A DNA stretch of 64,000 nt from Adlercreutzia caecimuris B7 (GTDB lineage: Bacteria; Actinomycetota; Coriobacteriia; Coriobacteriales; Eggerthellaceae): contig NZ_KE159646.1 in assembly GCF_000403355.2 (NCBI RefSeq), positions 955,226 to 1,019,225 of the forward strand, read 5' to 3'. Positions within the stretch are counted from its first letter, which is position 1. Every line of letters begins with the position of its first letter. The notes below the pieces were generated by a model. The model saw only the letters and a list, made by a program, of their open reading frames with translations, was not told the origin of the DNA and did no database searches. Position numbers and translations under genes: made by a program. Shown here one piece after another: positions 36,027 through 55,588 of this stretch.

Positions 36027-36186
36027 AGAAGTTCCTTTTCCCAGGTCAATCATCATATTCAAAAGTCAAGACTGTAATTGCAATAAGTATTACGATACTT
36101 TGTACTCGCTAACGGTGTAAGTCCCGCGTGCTGGCAGTGCCTTCTGCATCTATTGGCTCGTCCAACAGGGCAGGAGGTGATGGCCT

Positions 36187-36357
36187 ATGGAGATAGCTCT
36201 CGTTGTCATTCAGTTGCTGACCGCTCTCACAGGGTTGGCAACGGCGGCGGTGAAACTCTGTATCCAGAGCACCGAGCAGAAGCGTCCACTGGTTGATAAA
36301 GAAGGCTCGGACGTAGCGGCGTCCGAGCCTCACAACCAGAACGGCACTGCCCGATAA
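36187..36357 (+). CDS. Small hydrophobic peptide, candidate type I toxin (copy 1)
   Basis: 56 residues. AGGAGGTGAT at 36172-36181, the full anti-Shine-Dalgarno complement, precedes the ATG by 5 nt. Residues 3-25 form one hydrophobic helix (I-A-L-V-V-I-Q-L-L ... G-L-A-T-A-A-V-K), followed by a polar, charged tail. The copy 2 peptide shares the pattern M-[ED]-x4-8-[QK]-L-x5-G-L-A-x-A-x-V-K. Short single-helix membrane peptides with antisense RNAs are typical of type I toxins. The tail of this copy reads through the antisense hairpin, unlike copy 2. Toxicity is an inference. Confidence 0.6.
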   Translation: MEIALVVIQLLTALTGLATAAVKLCIQSTEQKRPLVDKEGSDVAASEPHNQNGTAR

Positions 36358-36375
36358 CCACACCGGGCTTCCGTT
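36296..36375 (-). ncRNA. Predicted antisense RNA of module copy 1
   Basis: A predicted RNA of about 80 nt starting near 36375 and ending after the stem GGCTCGGACG/CGTCCGAGCC (36304-36329), which on the minus strand is followed by T-rich TTCTTTAT. Its 5' end would carry a hairpin GCCCG...CGGGC. It overlaps the last 60 nt of the peptide ORF and the mRNA 3' end, as expected of a type I antitoxin. Confidence 0.5.
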
Positions 36376-36381
36376 AGCACT

Positions 36382-36410
36382 ATTGTAGCACCCCCAACTC
36401 ACGCACGCAA
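36382..36410 (-). promoter_or_regulatory. Promoter of the antisense RNA, copy 1
   Basis: Minus strand TTGCGT (36410-36405), 17-nt spacer, TACAAT (36387-36382). The -10 and its immediate context T-G-C-TACAAT are identical in copy 2. Confidence 0.6.
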
Positions 36411-55199: not shown

Positions 55200-55364
55200 T
55201 TGAATGCACGTTGCGACAACCGAAAGACATGCGGAGCGATACGCAGGTTGCAGGGTCGCAGCCCGCTATCCACTGTTGTACTATTGTGTTATCATATCGT
55301 TGGTCAGCGGAGTAAGCCCCGTTTGCTGGCAGCGCCTTCTCGTGTGGAAGGAGGTGATTTGCCC

Positions 55365-55490
55365 ATGGACTTTATTATCCAGCTGCTCAAGCTTGCCGCT
55401 TCGACGGTGGGGTTGGCGGCGGCGGTGGTGAAGGCCATGTCCGCAGCGCAGGGCTCGCGCCCCGAAACGAAGGCTGACCGTAAGCGTTAG
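55365..55490 (+). CDS. Small hydrophobic peptide, candidate type I toxin (copy 2)
   Basis: 41 residues. Residues 3-22 are one hydrophobic helix (F-I-I-Q-L-L-K-L-A-A-S-T-V-G-L-A-A-A-V-V), followed by a basic tail ending D-R-K-R. The anti-Shine-Dalgarno match is perfect and 6 nt from the ATG. The stop lies in the loop of the downstream hairpin. The size, single helix and charged tail resemble Fst/Ldr-type membrane toxins, though the sequence is not close to any I can name. Confidence 0.65.
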   Translation: MDFIIQLLKLAASTVGLAAAVVKAMSAAQGSRPETKADRKR

Positions 55491-55552
55491 TTAGCTTACG
55501 GTCAGCTGAAACACAAACGGCGTTGCCCGCATCCCAACCACGGGCATCCGCT
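55465..55552 (-). ncRNA. Predicted antisense RNA of module copy 2
   Basis: Predicted start near 55552, ending after the stem GCTGACCGTAAGC/GCTTACGGTCAGC (55473-55506), followed on the minus strand by CTTCGTTTC. It overlaps the last 25 nt of the peptide ORF and the mRNA 3' end. Confidence 0.5.
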
Positions 55553-55558
55553 GGCCTT

Positions 55559-55588
55559 ATTGTAGCAAATCGCATCAGCTCCCTGCAA
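55559..55588 (-). promoter_or_regulatory. Promoter of the antisense RNA, copy 2
   Basis: Minus strand TTGCAG (55588-55583), 18-nt spacer, TACAAT (55564-55559), preceded by T-G-C as in copy 1. Confidence 0.6.

Follow-up and report, generated by a model that had tools for sequence, protein, structure and literature searches.

For BsrG/SR4, the parts of the two papers drawn on here describe antisense binding as raising sequestration of the Shine-Dalgarno (SD) sequence and triggering decay (PMC8167048, PMC4147584). The hok system, in the relevant part of its source, depends on a leader ORF, mok, and the target of Sok is the 5' leader (PMC4147584), while for AapA the cited sections report end-pairing that is conserved in relatives (PMC6733600, PMC4147584). 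A 2021 review, as far as the portion cited extends, confines the membrane type I toxin-antitoxin modules so far described to Proteobacteria and Firmicutes (PMC8309996); an E. lenta plasmid carries a toxin-antitoxin module whose type is not given in the passages of the paper used here (PMC9734109).

Here we describe a module found twice in a 64,000-nucleotide stretch of the Adlercreutzia caecimuris B7 genome (the window), a third time elsewhere in that genome, and repeatedly across the order. We read each copy, with a probability of about 0.72, as a chromosomal type I toxin-antitoxin-like module of Coriobacteriia. The name is given by anatomy, the toxin role of the peptide being putative, and we set the module outside the hok, AapA and BsrG families. 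The family is probably a toxin-antitoxin kind previously unreported in Coriobacteria; the original prediction knew of none in Coriobacteriia, and our literature searches, with most subscription papers outside their coverage, likewise found no such system reported there. The recurrence of the module and the pairing of its ends are confirmed, and are stronger than first claimed.

Anatomy of the two window copies

Copy 1 occupies 36108-36378 of the + strand, flanked by minus-strand genes for an IF-2B-family protein and a PEP-utilising (PPDK-like) enzyme. Its probable sense RNA start is the 5' strand of helix P1, GCTAACGG (36108..36115, from fold and covariation), which pairs with the 3' strand CCGTTAGC (36371..36378; sequence, fold and covariation). 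Helix P2 joins GGCAGTGCC (36133..36141; sequence, fold and covariation) to GGCACTGCC (36343..36351; sequence and covariation). A weak putative sense -10, TACTTT (36096..36101, 6 nt upstream of P1), was placed by alignment to relatives with TATAAT as their -10. The SD AGGAGGTGAT (36172..36181), evident in sequence and fold, has its 5' part paired to upstream CCTTCTGC in the minimum-energy fold, and the ORF at 36187..36357 encodes a putative membrane toxin of 56 aa, MEIALVVIQLLTALTGLATAAVKL..., all of these features lying on the + strand. On the minus strand, the hairpin GGCTCGGACG-N6-CGTCCGAGCC within the ORF (36304..36329), with tail TTCTTTATCA, is a putative antisense terminator, and an extended -10, TGCTACAAT, stands in the sequence at 36382..36390 with a possible -35, TTGCGT, at 36410-36405 (spacer 17). 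From this box and the hairpin an antisense RNA of ~80 nt is predicted at 36297..36375, its start falling approximately at the P1 3' strand as read on the minus strand.

Copy 2 spans 55302-55557, again on the + strand and flanked by minus-strand genes, here for a family 5 solute-binding protein and an SRP54-type protein (Ffh). In order along the + strand, the sequence has a sense extended -10, TGTTATCAT (55287..55295), the P1 5' strand GGTCAGCGGA (55302..55311; sequence, fold and covariation), the P2 5' strand GGCAGCGCC (55328..55336; sequence and covariation) and an anti-SD, CCTTC (55335-55339), assigned from the fold, the SD hairpin being without covariation support. The final CC of the P2 5' strand doubles as the start of the anti-SD and is thus common to P2 and the SD hairpin. 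There follow the SD AAGGAGGTGA (55348-55357; sequence and fold), the 41-aa ORF of a putative membrane toxin, MDFIIQLLKLAASTVGLAAAVVKAMSAAQGSRPETKADRKR (55365..55490), the P2 3' strand GGCGTTGCC (55519..55527; sequence and covariation) and the P1 3' strand TCCGCTGGCC (55547..55556; sequence, fold and covariation). A hairpin across the stop codon (55473..55506, minus strand; covariation), with tail CTTCGTTTCG, is the putative antisense terminator; the antisense extended -10 is again TGCTACAAT (55559..55567, minus strand; sequence), with a possible -35, TTGCAG, at 55588-55583 (spacer 18). Box and hairpin together predict an antisense RNA of ~85-90 nt at 55465..55552 of the minus strand. Elsewhere in the window, positions 26-32428 hold very long + strand ORFs of 2431, 1497, 3395 and 2087 aa.

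The original prediction held that in both copies the 5' and 3' ends of the mRNA pair through two helices, and the sequences and folds bear this out: the sense RNAs of copies 1 and 2 fold with z of -5.4 and -5.5, none of 200 shuffles being as stable in either case. The minus strands likewise fold well, with z -5.45 for copy 1 (36280-36375; 0/200 shuffles as stable) and z -3.7 for copy 2 (55460-55556; 1/200). The SDs ascribed to both copies are present as described (AGGAGGTGAT, AAGGAGGTGA), and the short single-helix peptide corresponds to the ORFs of 56 and 41 aa. The predicted antisense promoter and terminator fared less evenly. The TGCTACAAT box is at both copies, yet a generic sigma-70 promoter scan, with 9/12 bases required, is negative for the antisense at both; the terminator hairpin is likewise present in both, yet a generic terminator scan detects the antisense terminator of copy 2 alone and misses that of copy 1. 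On the sense strand, too, the promoter scan returned nothing at either copy.

A third copy and relatives across the order

The third copy of this genome lies outside the window (G000 contig C1, 274233-274334; ~1420-1700 of locus L180), with a TTG start codon, an SD, a stop hairpin and its own P2 containing G-U wobbles. A peptide profile built from 8 peptides and then from 25 (the A4 profile) was searched against 395 genomes of the order and matches at 127 places in 77 of them (E<=1e-3), with 1-4 copies in each genome that has matches. Outside the order, a profile search of 396 genomes sampled from the phylum yielded nothing convincing; the matches there, in 11 of the 396, have E of 1.4e-3 or worse and are all open frames of at least 70 aa. 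A DNA pattern scan names among the relatives Adlercreutzia mucosicola, Slackia, Collinsella aerofaciens (strain 1001136B having three matches), Olsenella and an Atopobiaceae bacterium. At one locus (L048; G089 contig C33, 2839-4466) three module copies stand in tandem within ~1.6 kb. Four others (L225, L231, L233 and L210) are apparently decayed, their peptide being cut short (MVALVSLFTALIELSEALK...) and their scores lying under the pairing threshold, and in two more (L141, which adjoins a contig end, and L211) the ORF ends early in ...KTI and the 3' part is different, as by recombination at the same point.

Covariation of the paired ends

Two copies alone are insufficient to establish covariation, and it is the relatives that supply the proof. 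Three tests, namely nested-pairing scores, alignment and tree events, agree on the end-pairing, and with them the claim that pairing is kept despite differing bases holds well beyond the pair of copies from which it was drawn. The nested-pairing test took 117 of the 127 places without hand selection, 10 being dropped for flank or length. Nested 5'/3' pairing exceeds the shuffle 99th percentile for 92 of the 117 with their own arms, as against 95 of 351 with swapped arms, and the mean score is 52.0 with own arms, 33.6 for dinucleotide shuffles and 39.8 with the 3' arms of other genomes. The 25 places of the 117 that fall under the threshold include some clearly decayed copies, and copy 1 itself, at 43.0, is narrowly below its threshold of 43.8 (shuffle 99th percentile).

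For the alignment, 74 of 77 oriented matches were used (one too long, one with a short flank and one duplicate were dropped), 63 of the 74 were kept after 11 without clear arms had been removed by eye, and thinning to <85% identity left 48; the alignment, tree-event and stop-hairpin covariation results thus apply to elements whose arms can be recognised. With these 48 diverse elements aligned by MAFFT in a structure-blind manner and judged against 500 swaps, P2 is paired in 426/432 cells (98.6%, as against 91.2% in swaps, maximum 93.3%) and shows 28 both-side changes, one position being A-T in 32 sequences, C-G in 11 and G-C in 5. P1 is paired in 76.4% of cells against 66.1% in swaps (maximum 70.5%).

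Compensatory branch events, counted on a tree built from the ORF columns alone (null n=500), number 36 over all 23 end-pairs, against a null mean of 2.9 and maximum of 11. P2 contributes 13 (null 0.8, maximum 6) and P1 19 (null 2.5, maximum 8). Single changes that break P1 pairs number 51, above the null mean of 35.9, so that the alignment or register is imperfect at P1. P1b is without clear covariation: 67.5% of its cells are paired, swaps giving 66.6%, and it has 4 events where the null averages 0.8 and reaches 4. The same is true of the SD hairpin and of H, a local hairpin on the 3' side, each with 1 event on the tree.

A DNA pattern consisting of the 5' arm, SD and ATG alone offers an independent view. 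Among the 80 loci listed of its 83 stretches, 34 of 36 Coriobacteriia matches have a 9-bp partner 139-183 nt downstream, whereas 5 of 44 matches from outside Coriobacteriia have a 9-bp partner anywhere within 300 nt. Class membership was checked for three of the names that are less familiar. Of the two misses, one has an 8-bp partner instead (L101) and the other (L141) diverges at the ORF end, its contig stopping soon after. At the level of sequence, then, pairing of the mRNA ends through P1 and P2 is shown by covariation; the further copies with compensatory changes that the original prediction called for are present elsewhere in the genome and across the order.

The peptide and the antisense signals

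The peptide has the consensus MxLxxxxxKLATALVGLAxAxVxxxxxARGxxxxxKxxRxR. Hydropathy reaches at least 1.6 over 19 residues in 97 of 104 distinct peptides, the tail is positively charged in 82 and negatively in 15 of the 104, and AlphaFold gives a single helix at residues 2-29 (mean pLDDT 77). With pN/pS of 0.55, 0.64 and 0.44 in three groups, a hydrophobic helix peptide under purifying selection is well supported, in keeping with the conservation at the protein level that the original prediction required.

Database models place it nowhere firmly. Neither window copy attains a curated cut-off in Pfam or NCBIfam, Rfam yields nothing at its gathering scores anywhere in the window, and none of 8 members was matched by PADLOC. 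Among 25 members, the Pfam and NCBIfam matches include no Hok, BsrG or TxpA model, and Fst and Ldr models are likewise missing from the 8 Pfam families listed for them. Weak matches to Pfam TisB_toxin occur in 3 of the 25 (best E 0.11), copy 2 scoring E 0.29 and 12.1 bits against a cut-off of 25, and the best Rfam match in 14 loci is rdlD at one locus (E 0.3, 25.9 bits against a gathering score of 50). We did not take up Pfam DUF6223, the best peptide match at E 0.0014 yet found in 1 of 25 members, nor the weak matches to Pfam LapA_dom (E 0.019, 2/25 members), NCBIfam TrbK_Ti (E 0.032, 2/25) and a PHROGs holin (E 0.11, 1/8 members).

A selected protein with blank promoter scans would also be expected were the peptide a small membrane protein, such as a stress or envelope regulator, made from a structured mRNA subject to translational repression, with no working antitoxin from the 3' box and hairpin and no toxicity. 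This alternative, the best of those considered and nonetheless an unlikely one, draws on the pN/pS of 0.44-0.64 and on the generic scans at the window copies. Against it stand the signals on the opposite strand, counted in the 88 of 117 elements left after thinning by shared 8-mers. An antisense -10 lies outside the paired ends in 64/88, compared with 4/88 for an adjacent control stretch of like GC and 84/880 shuffles; the sense -10, for comparison, is found in 54/88 against 7/88 for a neighbouring stretch and 97/880 shuffles. The stop hairpin covaries, with 30 compensatory events on the tree against a null of 3.0 (maximum 10), its pairs holding in 394/526 cells, and a perfect stem of at least 9 bp surrounds the stop in 40/88 elements as opposed to 34/440 shuffles. 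The side richer in U is that of the antisense direction: over 78 hairpins from a loose search (at least 5 bp), which missed the copy 1 hairpin located further inside the ORF, there are 4.0 U per 10 nt in the tail on the antisense side, compared with 1.7 on the sense side, many antisense U tracts being interrupted. No clear terminator was seen for the sense RNA. The duplicated and patchy copies also suit a toxin-antitoxin module. The conserved -10 and the covarying, U-richer hairpin are the signals of a predicted antisense gene at the locus, for which the generic scans are largely negative.

More tentatively, the codons for the basic C-terminus of the toxin may double as the antisense terminator, and, as part of the same joint reading, AAA lysine codons may supply the antisense U tract in several members. 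With the terminator inside toxin codons, RNA and protein would constrain each other.

Access to the SD and a proposed mechanism

Folding models were made for 62 of 63 members, the remaining one being without an SD by the pattern used. The SD is mostly paired in every modelled state, with mean unpaired probabilities for the SD core of 0.14 at full length, 0.08 once the region covered by the antisense is blocked and 0.10 once the 3' arm is removed. The core is more open in the full length than in the blocked state in 28/62 and less open in 2/62, a small effect that stands without unrelated genes as comparison. An SD complement of at least 5 bases is found in 82% of 77 members against 53% of shuffles. 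In these models antisense binding tends to close the SD. In copy 2, the CC common to P2 and the anti-SD would provide a structural cause for such closing. Removal of the 3' arm leaves the SD closed, so that trimming at the 3' end, which acts as the trigger in hok and AapA, would not be expected to expose it. As the modelled change is closing by antisense and not opening by trimming, we prefer a logic of the BsrG/SR4 kind (PMC4147584), here built on an mRNA whose ends pair as in hok and AapA.

The module might then operate as follows. A sense RNA of ~260 nt would encode the single-helix membrane peptide, mostly of 37-58 aa and probably toxic when overproduced, with its 5' and 3' ends paired by P1 and P2 and its SD predicted to be buried in a local hairpin adjoining P2. 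An antisense RNA of ~80-90 nt would begin at the outer edge of P1, read back across the 3' UTR and stop at the hairpin of the ORF end, as the conserved -10 box, the covarying hairpin and the U-rich antisense side suggest. Being the complement of the 3' arm of the mRNA, this RNA would nearly repeat the mRNA 5' leader in its own 5' part. It could thereby invade the end-pairing by strand exchange and replace the leader in the duplex, which may be open to RNase III, and the released leader strand, GCC(TTC), would then close over the SD if the switch runs in this direction.

A strict hok-type scheme would have the full-length mRNA inert until 3' trimming enabled both its translation and its binding to the antisense. 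The covarying end-pairing is as in hok and AapA1, so far as the part of the source cited describes them (PMC6733600), yet we regard this scheme as very improbable. Modelled trimming takes the SD from 0.14 to 0.10 and does not open it, and little of the predicted antisense target would be left after it. A reading in another frame overlaps the toxin start in 66/88 elements, with an SD-like sequence in 12/88 only, so that few elements offer a candidate for a mok-like leader ORF. We do not accept hok membership, on these 12/88 and on the predicted position of the antisense over the 3' end. Of the hok-like type I logic originally proposed, the type I-like anatomy and the hok-like end-pairing stand, while the predicted antisense position over the 3' end and the closed SD after modelled trimming depart from it.

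Gain, loss and spread of the module

The neighbours of copy 1 are kept in three congeners (L026, L028 and L030; genomes G004, G007 and G008) and those of copy 3 in one (L217). At the copy 2 site the element is missing from the four relatives whose sequence aligns to either side of it (L241, L244, L245 and L246); for L242 and L247 just one side could be aligned, the comparison did not take in G003 and G006, and the intergenic DNA did not align and so gave no view of target-site duplications. Searches of phages (with one peptide) and plasmids (with two) gave no match. Three viral-contig pattern matches proved to be unrelated proteins without a pairing partner, and no relative was confirmed by a peptide scan of viral contigs. 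Such gain and loss, together with the duplicated copies, is in keeping with chromosomal type I modules.

Least likely of all is a miniature mobile element having the paired ends as terminal inverted repeats and the ORF as a passenger: the inverted ends, the 1-4 copies per genome, the tandem copies on G089 C33 and the four relatives without copy 2 at its site would fit it, but transposon ends are usually alike, whereas copies in one genome here differ in end sequence and yet stay paired, and the ORF is under selection, the neighbours of copy 1 are kept, and no relative appeared in those searches of phages, plasmids and viral contigs.

If the type I toxin-antitoxin reading is true, membrane type I modules would extend to gut Actinomycetota (among them Adlercreutzia, Slackia, Collinsella and Olsenella). 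Transformation methods exist for Eggerthella and Gordonibacter, according to the part of the paper cited (PMC9734109). About a hundred natural variants of the module are on offer for tests of mechanism.

Comparison with known systems

The peptide has the short N-terminal helix and polar tail of TisB, Fst/Ldr and other small membrane toxins. The module differs from them in that its TisB_toxin matches are weak and the rdlD match lies below the Rfam gathering score.

With hok/Sok and AapA/IsoA, as the cited portions of the papers present them, the module has in common the end-pairing of a toxin mRNA, multi-copy loci and a small toxin (PMC6733600, PMC4147584). It differs from both in having no recognised peptide homology (Pfam/NCBIfam, 25 members). 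The predicted antisense signals of the Coriobacteriia module lie over the 3' end, unlike those of hok/Sok, where the 5' leader is bound; with AapA/IsoA the end-pairing is common to both, whereas the SD hairpin of the Coriobacteriia module is without covariation.

The likeness to BsrG/SR4 and TxpA/RatA, within the sections of the papers used here, lies in a short membrane peptide and in an antisense RNA, predicted in our case, over the mRNA 3' end; a charged peptide tail recalls BsrG and a strong SD recalls TxpA (PMC8167048, PMC4147584). The predicted geometry of this overlap is of the BsrG/SR4-TxpA/RatA type, its length being ~80-90 nt as predicted in Coriobacteriia compared with ~120 nt for BsrG/SR4 in the cited part of PMC4147584. 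Here again there is no recognised peptide homology (Pfam/NCBIfam, 25 members), and the Coriobacteriia module differs further in having mRNA ends paired by the covarying P1 and P2 and a predicted antisense terminator at or inside the ORF end. The module would thus join end-pairing to a 3'-overlapping antisense.
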